DNA from: a virus
Virus record (IMG/VR): IMGVR_UViG_3300022536_000073
Coordinates: 1-63,545 of that record
Reading direction: 5' to 3' (one strand)
DNA: 63,545 nucleotides
Below are positions 4,763 through 63,545 of this stretch, piece after piece; position 1 is the first letter of the stretch; every line of letters starts with the position of its first letter. Below the pieces are notes generated by a model. The model made no database searches. It was not told where the DNA came from and saw only the letters and a list, made by a program, of their open reading frames with translations. The translations under genes were made by a program, and so were the position numbers.

Positions 4763-5382
4763 TGTCAGAAGATCGGGATAGCGATAAAAAATACTACTTA
4801 GTCCCCCAAAAAGAGTCCGGAAAAGCTAGACATCCCGTTTCTGTGGATGTCGTGAAAAGTGCCTTTATTGCGGAAGGCCTGACCGTTGAAGAAATCTCTA
4901 GCCGATATTTCCTCTCCCAAGAAATTGTTCAAAAGGTAGTAGCAGACCATAAGCTGCAAGAACTCCGGAATGCTTATATAAGACAAGGCATCGCCAAAAT
5001 ACAAAACGTGCAGTTGGGGCAAGCCCAAGAGTTACTAGACGTAGAGCTTGGATTCAAAAAGATGCGGTTAGTTCAACTACAGTCCAAGCTACAGGACTAT
5101 ATGGCCTACTACGCTCGTCATAACGATTTTTATAAAAGACATCCGGTAACTGGAGATATCCTAAAGGATACTGATGGGATACCCATGCAGCTGAACATCC
5201 CAAATGTTGCGAGAGAGATTAACCAACTCAAGGAAAGTGTAACCCTCTCCGAAGGTCTCAAAAAATTGATGTCAGACCTGGACTCACTCATAAACAGTAA
5301 GCCAGAACCTGAATCGATTGATGGCGACGGGGACGTAATCGACATGGAAGAAGTCGATAAGTATTTTCGAAAGAAAGTTTAA
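4762..5382 (+). CDS. terS: terminase small subunit (probable)
   Basis: DNA-recognition subunit of the packaging motor. A predicted helix-turn-helix lies in LTVEEISSRYFLSQEIVQKV (about residues 40-60), followed by long helices suited to ring oligomerisation and an acidic C-terminal tail. It is separated from the large subunit only by an inserted HNH gene. The start is GTG with AGGAGG 5 nt upstream. The call rests on the HTH, size and position rather than on a diagnostic signature. Confidence 0.72.
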   Translation: MSEDRDSDKKYYLVPQKESGKARHPVSVDVVKSAFIAEGLTVEEISSRYFLSQEIVQKVVADHKLQELRNAYIRQGIAKIQNVQLGQAQELLDVELGFKKMRLVQLQSKLQDYMAYYARHNDFYKRHPVTGDILKDTDGIPMQLNIPNVAREINQLKESVTLSEGLKKLMSDLDSLINSKPEPESIDGDGDVIDMEEVDKYFRKKV

Positions 5383-6041
5383 TGGATTACCGACAACACT
5401 ATAACAACCTGATAGAAAAAAGAAAAATAAGTATCCCAGAGGGTTATGGGGAGGTGCATCATATCGTACCTAAATGTATGGGAGGCTCAAATAAAAAATC
5501 TAATTTAATAAAACTAACCCCTCGAGAACATTTTTTCGCCCATTTGCTATTAGCGAAAGTTTATAAGGGAAAGCTTTGGGCAGCCGTTAACAGAATGATG
5601 AACTCTAATGTTCACAATAGTAGGGAATATGCCTGGGCTAGAAAAAACTTTTCTAAAAGTATTCAAGGCCCTGGAAATGGGCGGTATGGGAAGTTAGTGA
5701 CTGAAGAGACTAGACAAAAAATTTCTAAAAAAAATAAAGGAAAACCTTGTCCAAAACACGTAAAAGAAATAGCGTCCAAGACCCACCTAGGGAGAAAACA
5801 ACCTTATAAAGAGCGGTCTAATAAAGCGAGGGCAAGAGGTGGTCGACCCTTCAAAGTGTACAGAGCAACCGTTGTGGGAAGTAACCCAAGATGGCAGAGA
5901 GTCTATAAAGAAGAATTAGTAGGAATTTGGGAGATCCAAAGAGAGTGTTCTAAGGACCTAGGCATTCCCCACCAACCTATCAATAAATGTCTTAGAGGGA
6001 TAGGGAAACACGTTAAAGGGTTTGTTTTCGAATGGATATAG
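5382..6041 (+). CDS. free-standing HNH homing endonuclease
   Basis: HNH nuclease with an EVHHIVPKCMGG motif (His26-His27), NLIKLTPREHFFAH completing the HNH fold, and a NUMOD3-type DNA-binding segment (residues 108-145) followed by a modular C-terminus ending in KGFVFEW. It sits precisely between the terminase subunits, overlapping terS by 1 nt (TAATG) and terL by 10 nt, so it intrudes without breaking either gene. Homing enzymes in terminase loci normally cut the intron-less or gene-less allele of a co-infecting relative. Confidence 0.9.
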   Translation: MDYRQHYNNLIEKRKISIPEGYGEVHHIVPKCMGGSNKKSNLIKLTPREHFFAHLLLAKVYKGKLWAAVNRMMNSNVHNSREYAWARKNFSKSIQGPGNGRYGKLVTEETRQKISKKNKGKPCPKHVKEIASKTHLGRKQPYKERSNKARARGGRPFKVYRATVVGSNPRWQRVYKEELVGIWEIQRECSKDLGIPHQPINKCLRGIGKHVKGFVFEWI

Positions 6042-18499: not shown

Positions 18500-19909
18500 A
18501 TGTCTAATGTAATCGACCAGGTTGCTAATGATCCATCTCTAACTGGATTTGGTTCTCATTCAGCAGCTCAAATTGAGCAACTTCAAAAGGCTCTATCGAT
18601 TTCTCAAAACTATGGTACGACTGCTCCCCAGGATCTAGCTGGTGGATCTGCTCTTGCTGTTGAGGACCTCGATCGCACTTTGAAGCTTGTTACCCATGGT
18701 TTGGAACACTTGAAGTTGTGGAAAGACATCCTCAAGGAAAAAGTTCCTCAAACCGTTCATGAATATAACGTTCAAAACTCTTACGGTCAAGAAGTTTCTC
18801 CATTCTTCTCAATGGGCGGAACTCCAGTCAACACTGACGCTAACTATGACCGTGAAGTTGTCCAAGTTAAGTATCTTGGAACCCAAGGACAAGTTCAACA
18901 CAACTTGACTTTGATCCAAGCTGCTCACGGACCCGTGATTGCACGAGAAGTTAAGAACAAAACTATCGAACTTTTGGCTCGAAACGAGCGCTCAATGTTC
19001 GAAGCTGACGAAGACATCAACGCTCTTGAGTACGATGGAATCGAAAAGCAAATCCGCGAAAAAGAAGCTCTCGCTCAGTACAAATCTACGGCTTTCGCTG
19101 GTTACGAGTCTGCTGGTGCAGATGAGTCTGTAATCCTCGATATTCGTGGTGCGTTCTCTGACGAAGTTGCTGAAGACATGGCGCTTAAAAACGTCAATAA
19201 CTTTGGTATGGCTATGGACTGTTACCTCGGTACCGATGTCCACTCTGCCTTCTCGAAGGACTTCTTCAACAAGCAACGTACGCTTCCAGGTGAGACCCTC
19301 ACTTCTGGTAACCGTGTAAAAGAGCACACTGGAACTATCGATTTCCGATTCAAGCCTAGCTTGTTCAATCGTCCTCGTAAAGCTCCTTTGGCTGCTACGG
19401 TTTCTGGATCTGCGGCTCCTGTTACAGCGAACGGTGACTCTCCGGTAGATGCGAATTCAGAATTCGCAGCTGGCGATGCTGGTACTTACAGCTACAAAAT
19501 CTCAGCTGTATACAGCGACGGTGAGACTTTGCCTTCAGCTAACGAAGAAATCGTAGTTACTGCAGGCGATAAAGTAACGACTGAGATCACTTATGTAGGT
19601 GCTCCTCTTTACTTTAACGTTTTCCGAGCTCCAGTTGATACAGCTGCTGGTTGGGAAATGATCGGACGGGTAGCTCCTGCTGGAACTGGTAACGCCCACG
19701 ACATCGATCTCAACTCAACGCTTCCTGGTTCTGCTAAAGCGTTCTTGTTGATGCACGATAGCGATGCTCTTTGCTGGAAACAGCTTGGTAGCATGATCAA
19801 ATACGATCTCGCTGTTACCGACACCAGCTACAAGTGGTTGCAACTCCTTTATGGAACGCCGCTTGTTACTGCTGCTCGTAAGCAGACTATCGCGAAGAAC
19901 TTGACCTAA
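18500..19909 (+). CDS. major capsid protein with Ig/FN3-like insertion
   Basis: HK97-fold-type major capsid protein, 469 aa. An N-terminal arm (to about residue 60) may be trimmed by the prohead protease. The core includes MGGTPVNTDANYDREVVQVK and a long E-loop/A-domain region. Residues about 300-415 form an inserted beta-rich domain (YSYKISAVYSDGETLPSANE, then YFNVFRAP) like bacterial Ig or fibronectin modules on capsid surfaces. Codon choice is more uniform than in neighbours, fitting high expression. A strong terminator follows. Confidence 0.9.
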   Translation: MSNVIDQVANDPSLTGFGSHSAAQIEQLQKALSISQNYGTTAPQDLAGGSALAVEDLDRTLKLVTHGLEHLKLWKDILKEKVPQTVHEYNVQNSYGQEVSPFFSMGGTPVNTDANYDREVVQVKYLGTQGQVQHNLTLIQAAHGPVIAREVKNKTIELLARNERSMFEADEDINALEYDGIEKQIREKEALAQYKSTAFAGYESAGADESVILDIRGAFSDEVAEDMALKNVNNFGMAMDCYLGTDVHSAFSKDFFNKQRTLPGETLTSGNRVKEHTGTIDFRFKPSLFNRPRKAPLAATVSGSAAPVTANGDSPVDANSEFAAGDAGTYSYKISAVYSDGETLPSANEEIVVTAGDKVTTEITYVGAPLYFNVFRAPVDTAAGWEMIGRVAPAGTGNAHDIDLNSTLPGSAKAFLLMHDSDALCWKQLGSMIKYDLAVTDTSYKWLQLLYGTPLVTAARKQTIAKNLT

Positions 19910-19978: not shown

Positions 19979-20194
19979 TTATTCTTCCATTAATGTGTCA
20001 TATACCAAATCTGAGATACGATTTTCTAGCTCACTATCTAGAAACCACTCCCCTTGTACTCTATTGCCATCAATAACCACTTCACCAACAGTGTAATCGA
20101 ATTCAGGGGGGTAATTATATGTTGCTGGTAGATAATAAGGGTTAATTATCTCAATATTGTAATATTTATTTTTATATTCAAAATCCAGATTCAC
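19979..20194 (-). CDS. hypothetical protein, 71 aa
   Basis: Tyr/Pro/Asn-rich N-terminus and acidic C-terminus, no known motif. It starts with GTG in a GTGA overlap with the small membrane gene upstream. Confidence 0.55.
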   Translation of the reverse strand: MNLDFEYKNKYYNIEIINPYYLPATYNYPPEFDYTVGEVVIDGNRVQGEWFLDSELENRISDLVYDTLMEE

Positions 20195-20346
20195 TTTAGA
20201 AACCTCAGGTAAACAAAAGGTGCCAGTACAGTATAGGTCAAACCAATAATTAAATCAACAGTATGTTGAGTTACAAAAAAGAAGGTAGATAAGAAACCCA
20301 AACCACCGGCTAATAAAGCCACAAATAAAACCCACATTTTATTCAT
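20191..20346 (-). CDS. small membrane protein, 51 aa
   Basis: Two predicted hydrophobic helices, one near the N-terminus (WVLFVALLAGGLGFL) and one in the middle to C-terminal half (LIIGLTYTVLAPFVYL). It starts at ATG on the minus strand with a GGAGGCG ribosome site, and its stop overlaps the next gene by 4 nt (GTGA). Function unknown. Confidence 0.65.
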   Translation of the reverse strand: MNKMWVLFVALLAGGLGFLSTFFFVTQHTVDLIIGLTYTVLAPFVYLRFLK

Positions 20347-20356
20347 CGCTCGCCTC

Positions 20357-20836
20357 CTAATTCAAAGGTACCAAATACCTCAAATACAAATAATCCCTAC
20401 CAACGTTAGGAAGTTCTATTCCAGCGTTACTGAAATGTTTGATGCCAAATTGCCATTGCTTATAGCCCACATTCACTTCTTCTGTAAACTGAAACGGGGT
20501 GGACAACAAAGCATCCGGTGCAGTCATAACAACCACACCCACCATAAAAGTAGCGTTTAGTCCCGTATAGTCTCCTAACCTGCGTCCGAGCAGCAAGGAT
20601 CCATAAAAAGCACCAGAATGACCCTTCTGGTTATCTGACCAGAACCCAGCTTCTAGTTTGTGGGTGTAGTGTTTTTGGAAATAAGTCTCCACGCCTGCAT
20701 TAAAGAACCCCGAATCTAGATTATTGGTGAATCCCTGACCCGCGGATAACGTCAAAACAGTCTCATTAGCTGTGGAAGGGGTTGAATATAGTAGAGATAG
20801 GGATAGCAATCCAAGGGCTAGGTTTTTAAGATTCAT
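20357..20836 (-). CDS. PagL-like lipid A 3-O-deacylase (outer membrane)
   Basis: Predicted outer-membrane beta-barrel deacylase removing a 3-O-linked acyl chain from lipid A. ATG 20836 is chosen because GGAG lies 7-8 nt upstream and it gives a clean signal peptide (LALGLLSLSLLYSTPSTA then NETVL). The mature part alternates beta strands and carries the PagL signature near its end: KHFSNAG with His134, Ser136 and Asn137, then LPNVG (Pro143-Asn144), and a C-terminal strand YLYLRYLVPLN. Size (159 aa) fits PagL. It overlaps the upstream gene by 11 nt. Confidence 0.78.
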   Translation of the reverse strand: MNLKNLALGLLSLSLLYSTPSTANETVLTLSAGQGFTNNLDSGFFNAGVETYFQKHYTHKLEAGFWSDNQKGHSGAFYGSLLLGRRLGDYTGLNATFMVGVVVMTAPDALLSTPFQFTEEVNVGYKQWQFGIKHFSNAGIELPNVGRDYLYLRYLVPLN

Positions 20837-21143
20837 TAGAATTCTCCGATGGTTGCGCGAGAAAACCAACATGCACGTAGTCAGAAGGGTCTGCTCCTAT
20901 GTTTTGACGGTACACTGAATGTGACCCCTCCGATTTTGATTTAAATTCTTCGGGAGGTTCGGCATCCCTGTTGACCACAGCTTCCTCTTCTTTAGGCTCT
21001 TCTTTCGGAAGCTGACTTTCTAACTCTTCGATCTTTTTCAGATATTGCTCTTCTAATTGAATTAGGATCTCAAACACCTTTTTGGTGTGGGGGTGCACGG
21101 GGTGCGTATATAGTAATTGATCGATTACGTCGGCGATTTTCAT
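20826..21143 (-). CDS. hypothetical coiled-coil protein, 105 aa
   Basis: An N-terminal helix and coiled coil (EILIQLEEQYLKKIEELESQ) is followed by an acidic linker and a short C-terminal segment. It is encoded just upstream of the PagL-like gene and overlaps it. Role unknown. Confidence 0.6.
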   Translation of the reverse strand: MKIADVIDQLLYTHPVHPHTKKVFEILIQLEEQYLKKIEELESQLPKEEPKEEEAVVNRDAEPPEEFKSKSEGSHSVYRQNIGADPSDYVHVGFLAQPSENSNES

Positions 21144-21146
21144 AAA

Positions 21147-21299
21147 CTACTCCAATCTAACCGTTTTCCCCAAAAGAGTCACGAAAGATAATTCTTTTTC
21201 GGCTTCTGGGGACGTCCCAGCATCCTTTTTATCTGGGATCATAATAACTGCAAACGGGTCCAGACCCTGCAACTCAAGCATTAGTTGTTGAACTGTCAT
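21147..21299 (-). CDS. hypothetical protein, 50 aa
   Basis: Starts MTVQQLMLELQGLDPFAVIM and ends LLGKTVRLE. Its start overlaps the preceding gene by 26 nt and SD-like AAGGAG is upstream. It resembles short phage proteins with an LxxLxGLDPxxxV opening whose function is not known. Confidence 0.6.
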   Translation of the reverse strand: MTVQQLMLELQGLDPFAVIMIPDKKDAGTSPEAEKELSFVTLLGKTVRLE

Positions 21300-21480
21300 T
21301 TTTTGTCACTCCTTCTCGGTTTTCCACGGCTTTCAATAAAGCTGAAATATCCACTCCCGAACCGTCACACAAGGTGAGTAGACGGGTCACAAAACGCACG
21401 TCAGACATATGTGGCTCTCCCATTAACTGCTTAAGGAAGTTAATTTGGAAGTTAGTTACGTCGTTTTCTCGAATTCTCAT
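21274..21480 (-). CDS. hypothetical protein, 68 aa
   Basis: ATG 21480 overlaps the upstream stop as ATGA and so is preferred to the longer frame. Small, helical and charged, with no motif recognised. Confidence 0.55.
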   Translation of the reverse strand: MRIRENDVTNFQINFLKQLMGEPHMSDVRFVTRLLTLCDGSGVDISALLKAVENREGVTKNDSSTTNA

Positions 21481-21620
21481 TCCATCTCCAATCCGATACA
21501 CTCAGACAAAGCATCTTGAAGTCGGGTATTCATTGTTTCGTAGGAACCAATTAGATAATGCTGGAAACCTACAAAGATCGAAAGCGACAAAACCATAAAA
21601 ATCAAAACTCGATCTCTCAC
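21477..21620 (-). CDS. small membrane protein, 47 aa
   Basis: GTG start with GAGGTGG upstream. One N-terminal membrane helix (VLIFMVLSLSIFVGF) is followed by a short helical tail, a type I or II single-pass peptide. It ends in an ATGA overlap with the next gene. Confidence 0.6.
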   Translation of the reverse strand: MRDRVLIFMVLSLSIFVGFQHYLIGSYETMNTRLQDALSECIGLEME

Positions 21621-21724
21621 TGAACCACCTCTAAATACTTCAAGACCCCAATCACCGCTACCGCAGTCAAAACTCCTAACAAGGAACCCTCACTAGCGAT
21701 GGCTAGACTTGAGCGTCCATTAAT
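21617..21724 (-). CDS. possible small membrane protein, 35 aa
   Basis: Open frame between the pyrophosphatase stop and the next gene, with one hydrophobic helix (LLGVLTAVAVIGVLKYL) and a GTGA overlap downstream. The only full-length start would be a rare ATT; an internal TTG is an alternative. Reported because the gap is otherwise empty and small membrane genes are common in this cluster. Confidence 0.3.
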   Translation of the reverse strand: MNGRSSLAIASEGSLLGVLTAVAVIGVLKYLEVVQ

Positions 21725-22172
21725 AGATCTTTTTGTACTCTGCTCTAGCTTTGCGAATATACTTTTTAATTTCTTCAACATCTGTAATTACTCCTCTCAA
21801 TTCAGTACCTTTTTTATAAGTTCTGAGAAATCCGTCAACAATATCATGGTAGTAGTCATAGTCCTCGTCTTGAGTACCGCAGACCAGCTTCCAATCAGAC
21901 TCCCCTTGATCATACATTTTGATCAAAGCTTTAGGAGTAACCATGAGCTCTACCCCAGGATGAAGCGAATATTGTCCAATCACAATCACATCCAGAGGAT
22001 CACCATCGTCCCAAAGGGTCTTATTCAAATAACCGTAATTGAAGGGAATGTTAACCTTCATAATACGGTCTACTTCCATGACGTCACGATCTTTGTTATA
22101 CTCGTACTTCACGTTAGACCCTTTGGGAATTTCAATCTTTACACGAACTTGATACGGATTCTCATTACTCAT
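21720..22172 (-). CDS. ppa: inorganic pyrophosphatase, family I
   Basis: Soluble pyrophosphatase, hydrolysing PPi to two phosphates and so pulling nucleic-acid synthesis forward. The full active site is visible: EIPKGSN start, Lys23 and Glu25 (VKYEY), Arg36, NYGYLN, signature DDGDPLDV (Asp56, Asp58, Asp61), Asp88/Asp93/Lys95 in YDQGESDWK, and TYKKG near the end. At 150 aa it is slightly shorter than bacterial enzymes (about 175). Spacing of Asp88, Asp93 and Lys95 matches that of the E. coli enzyme. Confidence 0.93.
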   Translation of the reverse strand: MSNENPYQVRVKIEIPKGSNVKYEYNKDRDVMEVDRIMKVNIPFNYGYLNKTLWDDGDPLDVIVIGQYSLHPGVELMVTPKALIKMYDQGESDWKLVCGTQDEDYDYYHDIVDGFLRTYKKGTELRGVITDVEEIKKYIRKARAEYKKIY

Positions 22173-22407
22173 CTGCTTTTACCACCATACCTTTAATGTA
22201 TTTGCGTAAGGAGAGTAGTTCAAAACTCCTCAAAACCCCTACACCCTCTACTGCGTGATCTAGGGCGTCCAGAATCCTTCTACGAGCTGTGAAAAAGCCC
22301 TGAATACGAGCCTCGTTTACAACGGTATTGAGATCCCCCACAAGTTTATCCCAAGTGTGGTGCTCGTAATAATATTCGTTCAAAATTTGTTCTACCGTTT
22401 TTTCCAT
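22165..22407 (-). CDS. hypothetical protein, 80 aa
   Basis: Helical protein (ARRRILDALDHAVEGVGVL) similar in layout to its 79-aa neighbour. It overlaps the pyrophosphatase start by 8 nt. No motif known. Confidence 0.6.
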   Translation of the reverse strand: MEKTVEQILNEYYYEHHTWDKLVGDLNTVVNEARIQGFFTARRRILDALDHAVEGVGVLRSFELLSLRKYIKGMVVKADE

Positions 22408-22452
22408 AAGCTATCTTAACCCCGTGCACAGAAGGTTGTCAACCCCCCCATC

Positions 22453-22692
22453 TTATTGATTAGCGTTCCCATCGTCTTCGTCAAATTCTTTCAACGTTTT
22501 TAGTAGACTTTCCCTCTCCCGAGCCGCTCCTAGCTTATCGGCGTATTTCAAGGCCTCCAGAAGGCTTCGCTCTAAACTGAAATAAAGATCAGGGCTCTTG
22601 CCCGTTTCTATGGTTTTCACGACGTTGTCGGTGAGTTTTTTAACCAAACTTCTAGCTAGGTCTCGATAGAGGTGTGCGGGGTTCGTGGACAT
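22453..22692 (-). CDS. hypothetical protein, 79 aa
   Basis: Helical (DLARSLVKKLTDNVVKTIE) with an acidic C-terminus. TAATG overlap with the gene upstream. Function unknown. Confidence 0.6.
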   Translation of the reverse strand: MSTNPAHLYRDLARSLVKKLTDNVVKTIETGKSPDLYFSLERSLLEALKYADKLGAARERESLLKTLKEFDEDDGNANQ

Positions 22693-22928
22693 TAAGCTGC
22701 TCTCTTATATCGGGGTAGGGTTTGCGCTCTGCGTTGATCAATACCCTCTAGTTCGGTGAGGGCGTTTTTTAGGTCCGTCACATCGATCAAGGCATACAAG
22801 CTGACCAAACGCTCGAGAATCTTATTGGCCTCTATATTAGCACCACCTTGTTCTGAGTGGTTTTTGAGCTCCGCTCGAACGGCCTCGACAGCTTCTAGGA
22901 TCATTTTGTGGTTATTGTAGTCTCTCAT
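22692..22928 (-). CDS. hypothetical protein, 78 aa
   Basis: First gene of the minus-strand accessory cluster, preceded by AGGAGG. Predicted helical bundle with a basic C-terminus. No motif recognised. Confidence 0.6.
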   Translation of the reverse strand: MRDYNNHKMILEAVEAVRAELKNHSEQGGANIEANKILERLVSLYALIDVTDLKNALTELEGIDQRRAQTLPRYKRAA

Positions 22929-30704: not shown

Positions 30705-31217
30705 TTAAAAACTTAACCCCAACCCACCGCTAAAGGTCTTGTTGGTTTGACCCTGGATCAATAAACGAACTCCCATGCTACGTGAGTTATAAATATCGCG
30801 CTCATATTGAAGGCCCAAGACTAAGCCCTGATCGCTTGTGATCCGGTCATTACCGTGCTCATCCTGAGTGTGGGTGAGTGTTCCCAAAGCTCCGTATCCC
30901 GCTAAAGCTGAGACCCGGTTTTTGTTATACACGGGTCTCACATATCGCTTTTTTACGATCTGTTTCTTTACTTTGTATTTAACTACGGGAACCTTTTTAA
31001 CGATAGTCCGGTACCGAACTACCGGCACTTTTTTGATCACGGTTTTGGTCTTATACACCACTTTAGGCTTAGTGCAAGTCTTAACTACCTTGGGGGCAGC
31101 ATTGCAAACTTGAACTACGGTTTTATTGCCGTCCGAGTTATCTCCCAGTTTAACGAGATCGTCGTTGGCGTATACAGACAGACTGAACATTCCTACAATA
31201 AGTGTCAAAGTTTTCAT
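30705..31217 (-). CDS. exported outer-membrane-like protein with VKKVPVV repeats
   Basis: Signal peptide MKTLTLIVGMFSLSVYA, then a mature N-terminal stalk with alternating Lys/Val repeats (KVPVVRYRTIVKKVPVVKYK) and two cysteines. The C-terminal half alternates hydrophobic residues as membrane beta-strands (VSALAGYGALGTL and GLVLGLQYERDI) and ends in GGLGLSF with a terminal Phe, the usual outer-membrane insertion signal. Predicted to be a small barrel with a basic periplasmic stalk. No family recognised. Confidence 0.65.
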   Translation of the reverse strand: MKTLTLIVGMFSLSVYANDDLVKLGDNSDGNKTVVQVCNAAPKVVKTCTKPKVVYKTKTVIKKVPVVRYRTIVKKVPVVKYKVKKQIVKKRYVRPVYNKNRVSALAGYGALGTLTHTQDEHGNDRITSDQGLVLGLQYERDIYNSRSMGVRLLIQGQTNKTFSGGLGLSF

Positions 31218-31945
31218 TATTTTCTCTCCTTTTGTAAAACTAAAATGGATTTAATTACATTAAGAGTTTGTTCACATTCTTCCTCACTATAACCCTCTTT
31301 TTTCCCTATTTCTTCGTAATTCTTTTCAAACTCTTCTAAACTAGTCCATTCTCTACAACCAACATGAAACCAGTTGGGAGTAATTGTTATATTATGTCTC
31401 AAGTTAGTAATATTGATACATTCTGAGGGTTTAGTTACTTTAGCATATCCAGAAACTACAGCATTTCCAAAAACTTGAGCATTTCCAGAAACTCTAGCAT
31501 TTCCATCAACTACAGCATCTTCATAAACTTTAGCATCTCCATAAACTTTAGCATTTCCAGAAACTACAGCATTTCCAAAAACTGAAGCATCTCCATGAAC
31601 TCTAGCATTTCCAGAAACTGTAGCATATCCAGAAACGCGAGCACGTCCAAAAACTAGAGCATATCCAGAAACTGCAGCATCTCCAGAAACTTTAGCATCT
31701 CCAGAAACTGCAGCATCTCCGTAAACTAAAGCATCTCCAGAAACCCCAGAATTTACAGAAACTCTAGCATTTCCAAAAACTTTAGCATTTCCAGAAACCC
31801 AACAATCACCCTCTTGACTTAGATTATCCTCAGACTCAACCCAACCTCCTAAAGCACCTTTTTTAATGTTGCGTTTAGGGATATCCCGAAGGGCTCTGAT
31901 TTGAGTTAATCCGTCTTTTTTGTTATCAGTTAATTCGTATTTCAT
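31217..31945 (-). CDS. hexapeptide-repeat (left-handed beta-helix) protein A
   Basis: The N-terminal module (MKYELTDNKKDGLTQIRALR and LGGWVESEDNLSQEGDCWV) is nearly the same as in the paralogue at 60761-61435. The middle 110 residues repeat GNAxVxGxAxV every 6 residues, forming a beta-helix like those of hexapeptide acyltransferases and YdcK-type proteins. The C-terminal domain contains the shared segment ITPNWFHVGC and an EEF helix. Acetyl-CoA-binding residues are not evident, so enzyme activity is unproven. Phages often carry such proteins with unknown role. Confidence 0.72.
   Translation of the reverse strand: MKYELTDNKKDGLTQIRALRDIPKRNIKKGALGGWVESEDNLSQEGDCWVSGNAKVFGNARVSVNSGVSGDALVYGDAAVSGDAKVSGDAAVSGYALVFGRARVSGYATVSGNARVHGDASVFGNAVVSGNAKVYGDAKVYEDAVVDGNARVSGNAQVFGNAVVSGYAKVTKPSECINITNLRHNITITPNWFHVGCREWTSLEEFEKNYEEIGKKEGYSEEECEQTLNVIKSILVLQKERK
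31441..31795. repeat. 18-bp periodic coding repeat
   Basis: Degenerate 18-bp units (consensus on plus strand near GCATYTCCAGAAACTNNA) encode the hexapeptide turns of protein A. The period is in phase with codons, so this is not a CRISPR array. Confidence 0.8.
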
Positions 31946-31957
31946 CGTTCTTTTTAT

Positions 31958-32539
31958 CTATTGGAAATCAATTTCATAAAATACGATATCGGAATAAGCA
32001 CCCTCAATCGAAAACTGACGTCGACCTACCCAACAAACCTCGTTAGAGTTCCCACTCTCACCATCACGCATATCGTTGCAGTAATGATCCCGAGGACTAG
32101 GTCCGTGGTCGCACTTATCGTTATTATAGATATCTGCGTGACCCCCTTCGTTCTCAGCCCACACACCGTCTCCTAAATCTACGCACTCACCACGGTTAGG
32201 TAGGGGGTGGACTTTTAGCACTGAGCCCGGGGACCCAGGATCTCCTTTATCACCTTTCGGCCCTTTAGGACCAGGGACGCCAGGTAACCCATGGTCACCT
32301 TTATCACCACGATCTCCCTTTTCGCCTTTTTCTCCGGTCACACCTTTTGGCCCAGGTAGCCCTTGATCACCGTTGTCGCCCTTCGGCCCTTTAGGGCCTC
32401 TAGGCCCCATAACCCCAGGCGTTCCGTCCATACCATCTACCCCATTTTTACCCTTGGTGATGATTTCTTGATTCTCCCAACAACCCGTTATGAGTACCAG
32501 AAAAAGACCAGCTACAATCGTTTGAAATTTAGTGTTCAT
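31958..32539 (-). CDS. collagen-like lipoprotein
   Basis: ATG 32539 gives a lipoprotein signal with lipobox LITGC (cysteine at the end of FLVLITGC), so the protein would be lipid-anchored. Residues about 30-105 form collagen-type Gly-X-Y repeats ([20 protein letters not shown] and following), charged and Pro-rich, predicted to trimerise. A C-terminal domain of about 85 residues has six cysteines and could cap the fibre. An upstream in-frame GTG at 32557 is the alternative start. Confidence 0.78.
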
Positions 32540-32583
32540 AAAGCAATAATAACCCACCTCAAATAGAATGGGAAGCTGTTTTT

Positions 32584-43430: not shown

Positions 43431-44816
43431 ATGAGTAAAGTGGATTCTAGTTTAAAAATTTATTTAACGAAGTTGAACAACGAGCCTCTTTTAACTAAAG
43501 CGGAAGAGGACGCCTTATTAGCCAATATCGAGAAATATCAAAACGCGATTTTATGGGAATGCGTCTCATCTACTGTATTTAGAGGGGAGTTATTTGACCT
43601 ACTCACCTCCAAAAAAGTTCAAGACATCGTCAAAATTTCACGAAAGCTGAACGATACATCCTCAAAACAAGACGTTAAGGAAGTTAAAGAGGCTTTAAAA
43701 AGTTTAATCAAAACCTTATCTACCAAATCTGTGAAAGCAGGGATCAAACGAGATCTGAAGAAGATCGGCTTATCGGGAACCTTGGTACACGCCCTGGTCC
43801 TGCGTATTAAAAAGAAGTATGTAAAAATAGATGAGCATGAGTTAGCCTTGAAACGTTTACTCACCTACTTCGAAGCTGAGAACCCTACACAGCTAGAGGA
43901 GATAATTCACAAGATTCAAAACGAGGACCTTGCTAAGAAGTTTTATGCTTTGAAATTTACGACATCCGAGCAGAGGTTGTTAAGTAGGGTGCATGACTAT
44001 AAAGAGTATCTCAAAGAAGAGAAAGCTCTAGCGTCTTTGGAGATAGACGGAGCGAATAAAGAAGACGTTAAAAAACTATACAAATCTATTGTGAGTAATG
44101 AAGAGCGGATGCAGTCTTATAAAGAGGAGCTAGTGCGTCGAAATTTGAGATTAGTAGTTTCAAGAGCCAAAAAGTTTAATAATAGAGGTCTGGAATTTGA
44201 GGACCTAATCCAGGAGGGGAATATCGGGTTAATCAAGGCCATTAATAAACACGATTCCTCACGAGGAACCAAAGTAGCGACCTACGCTACGTGGTGGATT
44301 GACCAAGCTATCCGTAGGGCAATATCTAATAAAGCTAGGACCGTCCGGATCCCTACCCACATTGAGTTCCTACAGACTCAATTAGCAGCAGCAACTACTG
44401 CATTGACTGGGGAACTGGGGAGACCCCCCAAAAAGTGGGAGCTAGCCGATCGGGTTGGGGTTTCTGTAGAGGTCTTGGAAAAACTAGATCAAGCCGCCGT
44501 TCACAAAGTTGGTATGGATGATGAAATGCCAAGCGGGTATACTATGGCAGAGCTGTTAGCTTCTGATCCAGACGACAACCCGTTCCGAATTGCTTCTAAA
44601 AAGATTTTGCGAGACCGTATTAAAACGGTTTTAGGCACTCTATCCCCCCGAACTGAGAAAATCATTCGACTTAGGTTTGGGATCGGGGAGGCTCGAGAGG
44701 GTATGACTTTACAAGAGTTGGCAAATGCTTTAGGCATCACTAAAATGGGCGTTAAGGTCGTCCAAAGTAGTGGGTTGAAGAAAATGAAAAAAAAGGGGAA
44801 CCTAAATGAATTCTGA
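43431..44816 (+). CDS. phage-encoded primary-type sigma-70 factor
   Basis: Full-length sigma-70 family factor of 461 aa, bigger than typical phage sigmas. Region 1.2/non-conserved part covers about residues 1-230; region 2 ([12 protein letters not shown] to [15 protein letters not shown], about 238-298) includes the -10 melting and recognition helices. Region 3 ([12 protein letters not shown]) and region 4 ([20 protein letters not shown] to 454) follow. In region 2.4 Gln292 is kept while the Thr of E. coli is Arg295. The 4.2 recognition helix ([16 protein letters not shown]) replaces the conserved Arg/Glu residues that read TTGACA. This fits recognition of extended -10 promoters without a -35. 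Confidence 0.93.
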
Positions 44817-51160: not shown

Positions 51161-51190
51161 AGGGGGGCTTTACGGCCCCCCTTTCTTTTT
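51161..51190. terminator. bidirectional hairpin terminator
   Basis: AGGGGGGC and GCCCCCCT arms with a short loop, T-run on the plus side. It ends the sheath transcript and lies within the last codons of the convergent endonuclease. Confidence 0.85.
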
Positions 51191-52972
51191 GACCCATTTA
51201 GCTTGCCCCGCATCGTAAATCTTAACCCACCCCAACTCCTCAGCGTGTTCAGCTTCTGTTAACTTACGCTTATCCATGTTAGCCCTACAAGCCCGTCGGT
51301 TAAAGGTCCTTGTGAAATCGGTCCATTGCCACCCCAAAGTCACCCCTTCTAGAACAAACCCTAGAGTTTTTAAAGACTCTCCTGTCCCGTACCTCAGATC
51401 AACAAAAGATTGAATAAACTCAGGGTCCTCAAGACGCTCTATTTGTTTAAGTAGTTTCGATAAACCCCCTACTACCGTAATGTTTAGCTCATTGGCGAAC
51501 CTAACGATATCTACCCCCGTTTTGTGTTTTTTGTAAGTAACCACAGCAAGTAAGACCCCCGTGGACTTATCCCTTAACCCCAGGCCCTTAGCTGTGGGCC
51601 CAGGACCCATTAAATGCGTCCTTTTTAAGAATTCAGAAGACTCCCTAAAACTCAAAGAAACAACTTCGGTTTTCCTAGCATAATACCGCACACTTCGACC
51701 CAATTTACTTTTAACGATGGAAGAGACTATCGGCTCTTTAGTTTCTACCTCATCGGAAAAGAATTGGAGTAAGGTTACTCCCTCTTTTCCAGCAGCTTCG
51801 AATTTCTTTTGATGGTATTTTTTATCCTTGAATTTGGCAGAATGCCAGTACAGAGCTCCGGGATCGATTCCCACCCCATGCTCAGGTAGTAGAATGTCTA
51901 TTTCTTTCCCTTTTAAAGTATTGTAGTCGTGGGTTACGAACTTTAAACCTTCGTCATTTAAGATTTTGTGAAAGACCAGCTCTAATTTAGAGGGGTTAGT
52001 TCGATCCCTATTTTTGAGGGTGTCTTGAGCTTTAGTCTTAATCTCCTCAAGTTTCATGGGATTATCCACCCCATAAGTCGCTAACATGGTTTCCTTAAAT
52101 CTATCTTTAGCCTCTGACGTAGCGGAGTCCTTACCTGAACACATTCGACATCTGGGGGCAGAATTAGGGTAGTTCAAAATGGCTTGGGGCGTCTTTTGGA
52201 TCCCCGCCCCACAATTAGTACACTTGAGGTTTAGTTTTTCGGTGTTTTTATAGTATCGATTTGGGATGTCTTGGTCATGCTCCTTAAGGTATGCGTGGAG
52301 TTTCTTTGTATAGGTCATAGACTTCTCCCCCTTCGTTTTGCCCGTAGAAACACTGCAAGACCCGCACCTAGGAGGCTTGTCGGGATTTCTGCACAAGTTG
52401 TGCGCCTCCACCTTCAGCATTACGTCACAATCCTCAAAACACGGGATATTCACGTATGGGGGAAAGTTATCAAATGCTTGTTCGATAACGTTTTCGTGGT
52501 AGAATTGTCTTAAATACTTTTTGGCTTTTTCTCTGGTCTGGTTTTCTAGTTTCTTATAATACTCTTTGTTTTGTTGATGGTTGAGGCACTTACCACATAG
52601 CGGTGGGTTTCCTTTTTTAACCAGGTTCTTCATACCCCTAACCATTTTGACCCCGCACGCACACGTTAGCTCGAGCCGCGAGTTGGTATTTACAGGGGTT
52701 TCAGGGATTTTTTGATTATACTTTCTCAGATAAGCTATTACCCTATCCGAACTCTTGGGTTTTCTGGGGGCTCGGTTCAGAGCGGCTTTTTTGGAACTAC
52801 ACGAGAAACATTCGTACTTCCCCGAGCGTTTGATCTTTTGGGTGAGATTTGACACCAAGACCACACTGGTTTTAGTGCATGTGGGACAGGTGACCACTAC
52901 TCGATCCCGAGACCTAATGGCCTCTTTTTTTAGCTTAAACTCTTCCGTTAAATACTCGTACCAATCTTTCAC
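51170..52972 (-). CDS. VSR-like EDxHD homing endonuclease with zinc-ribbon repeats
   Basis: 600 aa. N-terminal half has about four zinc-ribbon repeats (CPTC/CFSC, CACG/CGKC, CTNC/CRMC and a CFEDC type). The middle is a VSR-fold nuclease: Glu in PSKLELVFHKIL, Asp in GKEIDILLPEHGVGID, and WHSAKFKDKKYHQKKFEAAG. The C-terminal DNA-binding domain is shared with the protein at 54078. It sits between sheath and tube genes, the typical invasion pattern of a homing endonuclease. An extended -10 promoter drives it. Confidence 0.85.
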   Translation of the reverse strand: MKDWYEYLTEEFKLKKEAIRSRDRVVVTCPTCTKTSVVLVSNLTQKIKRSGKYECFSCSSKKAALNRAPRKPKSSDRVIAYLRKYNQKIPETPVNTNSRLELTCACGVKMVRGMKNLVKKGNPPLCGKCLNHQQNKEYYKKLENQTREKAKKYLRQFYHENVIEQAFDNFPPYVNIPCFEDCDVMLKVEAHNLCRNPDKPPRCGSCSVSTGKTKGEKSMTYTKKLHAYLKEHDQDIPNRYYKNTEKLNLKCTNCGAGIQKTPQAILNYPNSAPRCRMCSGKDSATSEAKDRFKETMLATYGVDNPMKLEEIKTKAQDTLKNRDRTNPSKLELVFHKILNDEGLKFVTHDYNTLKGKEIDILLPEHGVGIDPGALYWHSAKFKDKKYHQKKFEAAGKEGVTLLQFFSDEVETKEPIVSSIVKSKLGRSVRYYARKTEVVSLSFRESSEFLKRTHLMGPGPTAKGLGLRDKSTGVLLAVVTYKKHKTGVDIVRFANELNITVVGGLSKLLKQIERLEDPEFIQSFVDLRYGTGESLKTLGFVLEGVTLGWQWTDFTRTFNRRACRANMDKRKLTEAEHAEELGWVKIYDAGQAKWVKKKGGP

Positions 52973-54077: not shown

Positions 54078-55391
54078 ATGATTAACCCCACCACCTTTAT
54101 TTTTTTAAACTCTAGGAATAAAACTAGACTAAAAAAATTGGGCTACAACGTTCCTGAAAATTTCAAACGGGGTGCCAAACTAGAGATAGCTGTAGAACAT
54201 TTGAGTAAGGGTTCTCGCACCAAGGTAACCCGCATTTGCGACTCTTGTGGTAAAGTGGACCGGGTATGTTTTCGGGATCTAGGCTCCAAAGAGCTTTGTA
54301 AAAAATGTTCCGCCAAAGCACTAGTGGGAGAGAAGAACCCCTTTTACGGTAAACAGCATACCCAAAAAACCAAAGAAAAGTTAAGCAAGCTTAATAAAAT
54401 AAGTGATCTAGAAGAGTGTGAGATAATAAAGAAGCTTGAGTCTTTGGCAATCTCACCTACATCGGATAAAGCCAGTGAACTACTTGGCTACCACAAAATG
54501 CCCATCTTAAATATACTAAATCGGAATGGTAGGAGGGATCTCCTTTTTCAGAATAAGACTCGTTCGGGGTATGAATTAGAGCTCCTGGAGATACTAAAAA
54601 AGGACTACAAAGGACAAATCGAATTGAACTACAGAGGTCTGCAGGACGTATATGAAGTAGATCTGTTTTTTCCCGAAAAGGGGTTAGCGGTAGAGCTCAA
54701 TGGGCTGTGGTGGCATTCCGAGAAGTATAAAGATAAAAAAGACCACCAAAATAAATACTTAGCCTGCTTGCAGCAGGGAGTTAAGTTGTTAACTATCTGG
54801 GAACATACTTGGCTAAATAGAAAAGATGCGGTTATTAAATTAATCAAAGCACACTTAGGGCTTTCACAAAAAACCTATGCCAGAAAATGTAAACTAAACT
54901 TTGATCAAAAAATGCTTAAAGCCTTTATGGAAGACAACCATATCCAAGGAGCCCATCCAAACCACCGTCTCTTGGGGTTAGAGGATGCAGAAGGTCTGGT
55001 ATTAGCGGTTTCTTGGGGAGCTCACCATAGAGGTGGTACAGAGTCCGAAGTTTTATCTCGGGTATGTTTTTCTGATAAAAGGGTGGTCGGAGGTTTGGAT
55101 AAACTACTTAAACACATACCCGCTCCCACATTAATAACTTGGTCTGACAACTGTTATTCCCCAAACCCCACCCTATACAAAAACTCTGGATTTCGTAAAG
55201 TGGTGGACTTAGCTCCCGATTATTTTTACACCCGAGGATACGGGAAAGCTTTTTCCAAACAATCTCAAGCCAAATCCAGAGTAGACTGCCCTTCAGACAA
55301 AACAGAAGCAACTTGGGCCAAAGAACGTGGATTGTATAGAGTATGGGACTGTGGAAAGGTCAAATGGGAGTTAAAAAGACCCAGGCCTTGA
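54078..55391 (+). CDS. EDxHD homing endonuclease with NUMOD3-like segment
   Basis: 437 aa. N-terminal zinc ribbon (CDSC and CKKC), a NUMOD3-type segment (GEKNPFYGKQHTQKTKEKLS), a VSR-like nuclease (SGYELELLEIL, YEVDLFFPEKGLAVELNGLW, WHSEKYKDKKDHQNKYL) and a C-terminal domain matching the protein at 51170 (VVGGLDKLLKHI and the tyrosine-rich end). It sits directly after the tube gene and before the tRNA. Confidence 0.85.
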   Translation: MINPTTFIFLNSRNKTRLKKLGYNVPENFKRGAKLEIAVEHLSKGSRTKVTRICDSCGKVDRVCFRDLGSKELCKKCSAKALVGEKNPFYGKQHTQKTKEKLSKLNKISDLEECEIIKKLESLAISPTSDKASELLGYHKMPILNILNRNGRRDLLFQNKTRSGYELELLEILKKDYKGQIELNYRGLQDVYEVDLFFPEKGLAVELNGLWWHSEKYKDKKDHQNKYLACLQQGVKLLTIWEHTWLNRKDAVIKLIKAHLGLSQKTYARKCKLNFDQKMLKAFMEDNHIQGAHPNHRLLGLEDAEGLVLAVSWGAHHRGGTESEVLSRVCFSDKRVVGGLDKLLKHIPAPTLITWSDNCYSPNPTLYKNSGFRKVVDLAPDYFYTRGYGKAFSKQSQAKSRVDCPSDKTEATWAKERGLYRVWDCGKVKWELKRPRP

Positions 55392-60008: not shown

Positions 60009-60761
60009 TTACACCTCGAAAATTAAATATTTGGGATCGTTGTAGTCTGACCCACTATTGAGCACTCTACAAGAATCCTCTACATTATCCTTCCTCTGGT
60101 GGTTATGCCCACAACAGAAGTAGTCAAAACGTTCCTTTACTATATCATAGAATTTTGGATTAGCGCAACATTTTTCCCATTTTTTATCGTTCACATAGGG
60201 GTTATGGTGTGTCACGGCTACAGAGGCTCGGTAAGGGGTTAAATCTATTGCTAAAATTTCATCGAATTGCTGCCAAGCTCTGTTTGACATAAATACGTGC
60301 ATTGGGCATCCCTGCACGTCTTGGAACATATTATAAGCGTCGTTTGTTGGGGGGTCTGCGTCCCCATACCACCCGTCCCAACCACAAAAAAGAACGTTGT
60401 CAATTACTTTGGGACCACGTTCTAAATGGTGGATATCGTATTTTTTGAAAAGGTGTTGGTGTAAGTACTCAAGTCTGTGAAAACCTCTATGGCCCGCTTG
60501 CTCATCCTTGCGGTCTAAGACATCCCAAAAATCATGATTGCCACGTACAAGCAGGATTGGAATATCGACGTGCTCCCGGGCTTGCTCGATACTTCTTTTA
60601 AACTGTCTTTGTTTATTGACGGCTACGTCTCCTGCCCAAATCAAGACTTTGATGTCTTGGGTTTCGATTTCTTTTTGGATCTTTTTCCAAAATTTTGAGT
60701 GCTTGGAGTGGGTTTTACCATTTAACCCGTAATGTGTGTCTGAAGTTAATAAAACCTTCAT
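60009..60761 (-). CDS. calcineurin-like metallophosphoesterase
   Basis: TSDTHYGLNG, WAGDVAVN, VRGNHDFWD, VAVTHHNPYV and CCGHNHQ are the five metal-ligand motifs in the right order. At 250 aa it is a single-domain MPE. It is distinct in sequence from the phosphoesterase at 2512. Coupled to the hexapeptide-repeat gene upstream by a 1-nt overlap. Substrate unknown. Confidence 0.85.
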   Translation of the reverse strand: MKVLLTSDTHYGLNGKTHSKHSKFWKKIQKEIETQDIKVLIWAGDVAVNKQRQFKRSIEQAREHVDIPILLVRGNHDFWDVLDRKDEQAGHRGFHRLEYLHQHLFKKYDIHHLERGPKVIDNVLFCGWDGWYGDADPPTNDAYNMFQDVQGCPMHVFMSNRAWQQFDEILAIDLTPYRASVAVTHHNPYVNDKKWEKCCANPKFYDIVKERFDYFCCGHNHQRKDNVEDSCRVLNSGSDYNDPKYLIFEV

Positions 60762-61435
60762 TATTTTGAGATTTCCATAATTTTAAAATGTGTTTTTATT
60801 AAACTAGCCACTAACTCACATTCTTCTCCGCTATAACCTTCTTCTTTACCAACTTCTTTGTAATTCTTTTCAAACTCTTTTAATGATTTCCATGTCTTAC
60901 ACCCTACATGAAACCAGTTTGGTGTAATTGTTATGTTATGTCTTAAGTTAATAATGTTGATACATTCTGAGGATTTAGTTACCTTAGCATCTCCATAAAC
61001 TTTAGCATCTCCAAAAACCCAAGCATCATCAGAAACTACAGCTTTTCCAGAAACTCTAGCATTTCCAGAAACTTGAGCATATCCAGAAACTTGAGCATTT
61101 TCATAAACTCTAGCATCATGAGAAACTCTAGCATTTCCAGAAACTTGAGCGTATCCAGTAACTACAGCATTTCCAGAAACTTGAGCGTATCCAGTAACTA
61201 CAGCATTTCCAGAAACTTGAGCGTATCCAGTAACTACAGCATTTCCCAAAACCCAAGCATCTCCAGAAATCCAAGCATTTCCAGAGATCCAACAATCACC
61301 TTCTTGACTTAGGTTTTTCTCTGATCTAACCCAACCTCCTAAATCACCTTTCTTGATACCGTATAAAGGAATATCTCGAAGTGCTCTGATTTGAGTTAGA
61401 CCGTCTTTTTTGTTGGTAGTTAATTCGTATTTCAT
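60761..61435 (-). CDS. hexapeptide-repeat (left-handed beta-helix) protein B
   Basis: Paralogue of 31217-31945: the N-terminal module, GNAxVxGxAxV repeats and the C-terminal ITPNWFHVGC module are shared, but the repeat region differs. A 12-residue unit (NAVVTGYAQVSG) occurs three times in perfect DNA copies. Predicted beta-helix, no membrane segment. Two diverged copies in one phage suggest a variable binding surface. Confidence 0.75.
   Translation of the reverse strand: MKYELTTNKKDGLTQIRALRDIPLYGIKKGDLGGWVRSEKNLSQEGDCWISGNAWISGDAWVLGNAVVTGYAQVSGNAVVTGYAQVSGNAVVTGYAQVSGNARVSHDARVYENAQVSGYAQVSGNARVSGKAVVSDDAWVFGDAKVYGDAKVTKSSECINIINLRHNITITPNWFHVGCKTWKSLKEFEKNYKEVGKEEGYSGEECELVASLIKTHFKIMEISK
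61131..61238. repeat. three perfect 36-bp direct repeats in protein B gene
   Basis: Copies 61131-61166, 61167-61202 and 61203-61238 are identical. Each encodes two hexapeptide turns. Recent slippage or recombination is likely. Confidence 0.9.
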
Positions 61436-61928: not shown

Positions 61929-62090
61929 TTAGAAAGTAACTCTTTTTAATACTTTGCTGTAACCCTTTTTGATCTTACTATGCAGGGATTTGTTTTTCAG
62001 TAAAGAGTGAATCAACAACAATCCGCCCCCAGGAGCTACGACTACCGTAGTCCAAAAAGCAATCTGTTTAAAGGTCTTCTTTTTGCTCAT
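61929..62090 (-). CDS. small membrane protein, 53 aa
   Basis: Basic N-terminus, one membrane helix (FWTTVVVAPGGGLLLIHSLL) and a basic C-terminus. It overlaps the subtilase stop by 4 nt. Unknown function. Confidence 0.55.
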   Translation of the reverse strand: MSKKKTFKQIAFWTTVVVAPGGGLLLIHSLLKNKSLHSKIKKGYSKVLKRVTF

Positions 62091-63016
62091 TTCAAACTCC
62101 TCAAAGCCTTCCCAGCATTAAGTCTACTTTCGGACCTTACCTTACCCTTTAAGTTAGGTGTTGTATCCGCTTCTTTGATTATAATCTCAGATAACTGTTC
62201 GGGGGTCAACTGTGTCTTTTTTGACTTCAATAAAGCGGCCACACCGCTTACAAAGGCGGTGGCCTGTGAGCTACCGCTCAGTGCTGCTCTTCCGTTTTTG
62301 GGGTAAGTACTCGAGATCCTCACTCCAGGAGCCGCTATGTCTACGCTCTTTTTTCCATAGTTAAAACGGGCACCTACAACATCTTTTTCATCTGTCCCCG
62401 TAACACAAAGTACGTTAGAAAGTTCGTAAGCACACGGAAAGAAACGTTTTTCAAGTCTATCATCTATATCTGCTTCATTGTTCCCGGCTGCTGCAACTAC
62501 TAGGATCCCTGCCTGACGGGCCCGTAACAAAGTTAAATACTCCGCCTCTACAAAACGCATACCTCCCGCACTAAAATTAATAATATCTACCCGACGTTTG
62601 ATCGCATAATCCACAGCTTTTATAGCGTAGTGTAGGTTTTGTGGCCCTGTGTTGTTAGAGGAATAGTACTTGATCGGCAAAATAGAGACCCCTGGAGCCA
62701 CTTTCCGCACAATACCTGCTACGTGCGTTCCGTGGCCGTTCACGTCACTATGGTCCCCAAAGGGGGGTGTGAAGCTTTTACCCCACATAACGCCTGGGAG
62801 GTCTGGATGATCTGCTTGCACTCCGGTGTCGATCACCGCCACGACTACGTCTTTATGGCCTCTGGTAACTTCCCATGCCTTGAGTATGTCGATTTTAGCC
62901 AAGCCCCAGTTCTCTGGAGAGTTGATTAGAGCCTTTTTCTGAGTACTTTCGGCATGGTCTCCGTAAGTCAGAATTCCTAAGATAGCCAATATAGCTGCAT
63001 AAAAAGTATAGTTCAT
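62087..63016 (-). CDS. secreted subtilisin-like serine protease (S8)
   Basis: ATG 63016 gives a signal peptide (FYAAILAILGILTYGDHA). The triad is Asp63 in VAVIDTGVQ, His95 in NGHGTHVAGI and Ser250 in SGSSQATAFVSGVAALL, with the oxyanion Asn in AAAGNN. At about 309 aa it is a catalytic domain with short propeptide-like N-terminus. A periplasmic or extracellular protease encoded by a phage is unusual; target unknown. Confidence 0.86.
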   Translation of the reverse strand: MNYTFYAAILAILGILTYGDHAESTQKKALINSPENWGLAKIDILKAWEVTRGHKDVVVAVIDTGVQADHPDLPGVMWGKSFTPPFGDHSDVNGHGTHVAGIVRKVAPGVSILPIKYYSSNNTGPQNLHYAIKAVDYAIKRRVDIINFSAGGMRFVEAEYLTLLRARQAGILVVAAAGNNEADIDDRLEKRFFPCAYELSNVLCVTGTDEKDVVGARFNYGKKSVDIAAPGVRISSTYPKNGRAALSGSSQATAFVSGVAALLKSKKTQLTPEQLSEIIIKEADTTPNLKGKVRSESRLNAGKALRSLK

Positions 63017-63062
63017 AATCCCAACATAACACGTCTTGGGGGGGTTTGGGAACCCCCTATTT

Positions 63063-63071
63063 TGGTATAAT
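63063..63071 (+). promoter_or_regulatory. extended -10 promoter (TGGTATAAT)
   Basis: ATTTTGGTATAATTGG, preceded by a G-run and C5 stretch that can form a hairpin; drives the tail-type gene at 63111. Confidence 0.72.
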
Positions 63072-63096
63072 TGGATTAGATATATAGATTTAGATT

Positions 63097-63106
63097 GGAG
63101 ATCTCC
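63097..63106 (+). promoter_or_regulatory. palindrome covering a Shine-Dalgarno
   Basis: GGAGATCTCC includes the GGAG Shine-Dalgarno of the 63111 gene; folding would bury it. Confidence 0.4.
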
Positions 63107-63110
63107 CAAA

Positions 63111-63545
63111 ATGAGTAAATTCAAGAACTTAGCAAAAGATGTGCCCCCTACAGAGCATACTTTTATTGTGGACGTTGAGGGTCAAGCTACCAAAAAACGG
63201 TATGTAGGTGAGTTTACTTGCAAAATCCCTACCCAAAAAGACCAATGTCTCATTGCTAAACACAGAGCGTTCCTTAATGGAGAGTTTGCTCAATATCTCG
63301 ACCCGATTACTTTAAACACCCACCACATGATTTCTTATCTCAGATTCACTATCCAGACCGACGGCTGCCCTAAGTGGTGGGTAGATTCGGATTTGGGCTA
63401 TGAATTAATCGACGCCAACGTTACCGAAGTCGTGTATAACAGCGTGTTGGAGTTCGAGCGTGACTGGATGAAGCAGATTTGGGGAGAAGAAGAGATACAA
63501 AAGCTAGAGGACCAAGACGGTGACCGAGAGGAAGTCCAAGAAGCA
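63111..63545 (+). CDS. tail-type protein, runs off the window end
   Basis: 145 aa visible. It opens with YVGEFTCKIPTQKDQCLIAK, then HRAFLNGEFAQYLDP and a YLRFTIQTDGCPKWW stretch, a layout like tail-assembly chaperones, followed by an acidic tail. The gene continues beyond 63545, so its 3' end, and any frameshift, are unseen. Confidence 0.55.
   Translation, partial: MSKFKNLAKDVPPTEHTFIVDVEGQATKKRYVGEFTCKIPTQKDQCLIAKHRAFLNGEFAQYLDPITLNTHHMISYLRFTIQTDGCPKWWVDSDLGYELIDANVTEVVYNSVLEFERDWMKQIWGEEEIQKLEDQDGDREEVQEA

Follow-up and report, generated by a model that had tools for sequence, protein, structure and literature searches.

A phage-encoded member of the PagL family with a probable role in lipid A 3-O-deacylation

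PagL and phage-borne outer-membrane proteins

It is known that phages change the O-antigen of their hosts and encode proteins of the outer membrane. Lom and Bor of phage lambda, which we take to be accessory phage genes for outer-membrane proteins, are in this respect like the gene described here; we know of no catalytic function for either, and to our knowledge their sequences differ from that of our protein. The closest described system is PagL (PF09411), an outer-membrane lipid A 3-O-deacylase represented by the Pseudomonas aeruginosa structure 2erv. A gene in the window, by which we mean the whole stretch of 63,545 nucleotides of virus DNA that was analyzed (IMG/VR record IMGVR_UViG_3300022536_000073), encodes a protein sharing with PagL the predicted barrel fold, the size, a putative signal peptide and the H-x-S-N ... 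P-N-x-G spacing as well as equivalents of Phe104, His126, Ser128, Asn129 and Asn136. In contrast to 2erv, to which it is 17% identical, the window protein is phage-encoded, belongs to a separate clade and carries Asp at the position of Glu140, as do many bacterial members. In much of the phage clade, Arg directly precedes this position.

PHROG 15758, a phage protein group with no assigned function, is matched by seven of 25 aligned relatives while the window protein itself matches no PHROG at E 0.01. Part of the phage family is therefore already catalogued without a function. A tblastn search with six family proteins against 50,697 deposited phage genomes yielded no match, and no description of a phage-encoded PagL was found in the open-licence literature. 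Two candidate reports (PMC9004378 and PMC10305713) were rejected as the text match was to author names (e.g. Pagliara). Within open-licence papers, the literature thus agrees with the original prediction that no phage enzyme of this type has been well described. The enzyme family is known while the phage lineage seems to be undescribed.

The window gene encodes a PagL-family protein

The original prediction proposed a PagL-like lipid A deacylase based on an open reading frame with a signal peptide, the motifs HFSNAG and LPNVG, and a beta strand at the C-terminus. The frame is located on the minus strand as given, and its product shows both motifs, the strand and a signal-peptide-like N-terminus (Table 1). 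The assigned ATG is supported by a GGAG sequence seven bases ahead of it and by an 11-base overlap of the pagL start with the upstream ORF. Similar-looking ORFs are located upstream of pagL in L002 and L003. The putative Sec signal peptide was read by eye from the sequence together with a helix in the structural model. HFSNAG corresponds to residues 134-139 and LPNVG to residues 142-146. The last residue of outer-membrane barrels is usually aromatic; the window protein ends in VPLN with a non-aromatic final residue.

Table 1. Features of the pagL-like gene, its product and its surroundings in the window.
Feature	Position	Strand	Details
Major capsid protein gene, ahead of the cassette	18500..19909	+	marks the context as phage
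Cassette of small antisense genes following the capsid gene, contains pagL	19979..22928	-	
Downstream ORF	20191..20346	-	51 aa, two hydrophobic segments (by eye)
pagL-like gene, outer-membrane lipid A 3-O-deacylase family	20357..20836	-	159 aa; Pfam, profile search, AlphaFold2 model
C-terminal beta strand, residues 147-157	20366..20398	-	AlphaFold2 model
Active-site motif H134-F-S136-N137-A-G-x3-P143-N144-x-G146-R-D148	20393..20437	-	alignment to PagL 2erv; conserved in family alignments
F117, equivalent of PagL Phe104	20486..20488	-	invariant in 13 phage relatives; alignment to 2erv
Putative signal peptide, residues ca. 1-23 (cleavage between STA and NE, by eye)	20768..20836	-	sequence; model helix 3-17, first strand from 25
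Upstream ORF	20826..21143	-	105 aa, overlaps the pagL start
Inorganic pyrophosphatase	21720..22172	-	PF00719, 2.4e-28; same antisense cassette as pagL

The window gene is a member of the PagL family. Its product matches PF09411 with 29.7 bits against a curated cut-off of 23 (E 8e-7), two syntenic relatives score 34.1 and 40.0 bits, and all 25 proteins of our family alignment (A4) match at E <= 0.01. When a profile of 13 phage relatives was searched against the PDB, PagL (2erv) was the sole sequence match (E 3.5e-9). One relative (P0003) used as a single query gave a weak match to 2erv, and a single-protein phmmer search of the PDB with the window protein returned no PagL chain and only chance MFS matches.

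AlphaFold2, run only on sequences from the window and the loci of its relatives, predicts an 8-strand barrel for the window protein (pLDDT 90.2). The best PDB match of this model in VIA-align is P. aeruginosa PagL (2erv, Z 18.1, 1.6 Å over 128 residues), followed by the OprF barrel (Z 16.1) with other barrels at Z 16.1 or less. Foldseek likewise ranks 2erv first. OmpA, OprF, PagP and OmpX were considered as better fold matches and rejected because they fit the model less well than 2erv. Comparison of a predicted structure with PagL, the check suggested with the original prediction, thus returned the PagL barrel as the best match. By fold alone, PagL would not be told apart decisively from small barrels of other kinds; in combination with motif and profile, it is.

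For Phe104, His126, Ser128, Asn129, Asn136 and Glu140 of PagL, we follow the numbering and functional roles established in work on 2erv. Aligned with this structure, F117, H134, S136, N137 and N144 of the window protein occupy the first five of these positions. H134 and S136 are invariant across the phage family alignments. Proteins found by the H-x-S-N pattern keep the motif by construction while F117 and residue 148 lie outside the pattern. Asp148 occupies the position of Glu140. Among the sampled Gammaproteobacterial PagL motif matches, this position is Asn in 15, Asp in ten and Glu in one, and among the best profile matches in Pseudomonadota it is Glu in ten, Asn in seven and Asp in five. 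As bacterial PagL proteins often carry Asp or Asn here, Glu is not a defining residue and Asp is within the range of the family. For the same reason, we rejected the idea that Asp in place of Glu points to lost or special catalysis. The best structural match to 2erv, the aligned active-site positions and the location of the gene inside a phage genome support the proposed PagL-like assignment, and lipid A 3-O-deacylation would, judging from sequence and model, be the best-supported function.

A phage lineage of PagL and separate acquisitions by phages

The window, itself a virus record, encodes a terminase, a portal protein, a capsid protein, a resolvase and homing endonucleases. Related capsid proteins are encoded on 27 contigs, many of them fragments, and two of these contigs carry pagL. 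These two carriers possess the closest capsid proteins (82-83%) and have the gene placed alike, antisense behind the capsid gene with a similar-looking upstream gene. Several capsid relatives of 47-121 kb lack pagL, which identifies it as an accessory gene. No clear lysis gene was seen among the window ORFs scanned, the window possibly being a fragment. Elsewhere, the window encodes a sigma-70 family factor with regions 2 and 4 (43431-44816, +), two YdcK-like beta-solenoid proteins (31217-31945 and 60761-61435, both -), a collagen-repeat protein (31958-32557, -) and a subtilase-family protease (62087-63124, -); by eye, a similar-looking protease is located near pagL in L083 (L083:4562-5296). 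Three homing or HNH-type endonuclease genes are found at 5382-6041, 51170-52972 and 54078-55391, and in the relatives L006, L015 and L016 such genes seemingly lie directly behind the capsid gene (by eye).

To gather the wider family, we carried out profile and motif scans of IMG/VR in which counts for the general motif represent lower bounds. Among the matches listed, further PagL-like genes are located in unrelated phage contigs, and ten of the 20 phage-clade contigs searched contain a terminase match. We found the signature HxSNAGxxxPNxG[R/S]D in 12 contigs of IMG/VR compared with one of 84,980 species genomes. This sole genome match, from Cupriavidus (L157), reads GSD, nests in bacterial PagL and was rejected as a clade member. 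A degenerate-peptide search of genome contigs gave no confirmed relatives.

Two trees were calculated, one from phage proteins and 27 Gammaproteobacterial PagL sequences, the other after adding those Pseudomonadota proteins that most resemble the phage profile, with 23 phage sequences. Phage proteins are split from all bacterial ones with support of 99/97 and 100/99, respectively, in trees that are unrooted, are based on a short alignment with long branches and sample bacteria from Pseudomonadota only. In the second tree, a long branch separates the phage clade from bacterial PagL. For this sample, the clade appears to be phage-only relative to Pseudomonadota PagL. Close pairs within the clade show dN/dS values of 0.06-0.09 with dS near saturation; as estimated from these codon comparisons, close members evolve under purifying selection. 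pagL lies beside terminase genes in the clade members L035-L037, L051, L061 and L155. In L147 (L147:11240-14576), the genes after pagL encode small membrane proteins, a lipoprotein-like product and a peptidase resembling M15 (by eye), a neighbourhood that is apparently a lysis cassette.

PagL of the bacterial type is also found in phages. The canonical form (HYSNAGIK[QE]PNDGIES) is present in at least about 90 IMG/VR Pseudomonas contigs (L060, L097, L038 and most of L038-L156). In the contigs inspected, the gene is part of a lambdoid prophage, with ninG-like genes on one side and terminase-side genes on the other. An origin from host flanking sequence was rejected due to the ninG/ninB-like genes (by eye) and nearby terminase in the contigs checked. 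Like the window gene, these are phage-borne members of the PagL family (L060, L038, L059), but they are canonical with Glu and represent a separate acquisition. Another bacterial-type PagL is encoded at L075:8258-8746 (-) in a phage contig of 349,660 bases that also has terminase matches. As both the prophage and the L075 proteins nest among bacterial PagL in the tree, phages acquired PagL on at least two further occasions.

Putative role in outer-membrane remodelling and alternative explanations

We consider it likely that the window gene encodes an exported PagL-family enzyme that deacylates lipid A at position 3 and thereby alters the host surface to the benefit of the phage. The protein would be exported via Sec and is predicted to adopt an 8-strand barrel fold in the outer membrane of the host. 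His134 and Ser136 together with Asp148 would then hydrolyze the position-3 ester of lipid A, freeing one 3-hydroxyacyl chain, and under-acylated LPS may loosen the outer leaflet of the host membrane during infection. As the most likely benefit, the phage would gain an altered surface that is a poorer target for further phages, through superinfection block or a changed receptor, and that, being weakened, releases progeny or membrane more easily. The places of pagL vary among phages (terminase-side, lysis-cassette-like, ninG-like/terminase-side), are mostly those of late or accessory genes and would fit late outer-membrane remodelling, a timing that we infer from gene position. A passage of PMC6369716, citing Elhenawy 2016, states that outer-membrane vesiculation drops in Salmonella Typhimurium on loss of pagL. 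Damping of immune sensing, also suggested originally, is the least supported of the proposed roles because nothing ties the window phage to an animal-associated host.

The protein could instead be a PagL-fold barrel with lost or changed catalysis that acts at the surface, for example as a receptor shield, like lambdoid Lom/Ail-type barrels. Small barrels are frequent among phage proteins and the catalytic Glu is replaced by Asp, but bacterial PagL, too, often has Asp or Asn at this position, and the active-site His, Ser, Asn and Phe are kept in three phage proteins whose retrieval involved no motif search. Combined with the purifying selection on close clade members, this makes a non-catalytic barrel unlikely. 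A PagL-fold hydrolase acting on a different substrate, for example a phospholipid of the outer leaflet or some other acylated lipid in the envelope of a non-model diderm host, would be in line with the distance of the phage clade from bacterial PagL (low identity to 2erv, long branch). Its conserved core is however that of PagL, we know of no family member acting on another lipid, and we judge this explanation to be quite improbable. A host pagL that was acquired recently and serves no purpose for the phage is very improbable: the accessory distribution among capsid relatives favors it and the bacterial-type genes of Pseudomonas prophages and L075 show that such events occur, but the clade that holds the window protein is deep and phage-only, the protein has syntenic relatives, and close clade members have dN/dS values near 0.06.

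Beyond the window, lipid A deacylation by the phage enzyme may be more widespread. We tentatively suggest, as a possibility that we would not call probable, that many unrelated diderm phages have in common an old PagL lineage restricted to phages, whose members deacylate host lipid A during infection, with the resulting outer-membrane remodelling serving progeny release or blocking adsorption. As far as the searched open-licence literature shows, no phage enzyme that edits lipid A has been described. If true, lipid A deacylation would provide a function for a PHROG without annotation. The phage-only PagL clade and the separate acquisitions by Pseudomonas prophages suggest that lipid A acylation matters for phage fitness.
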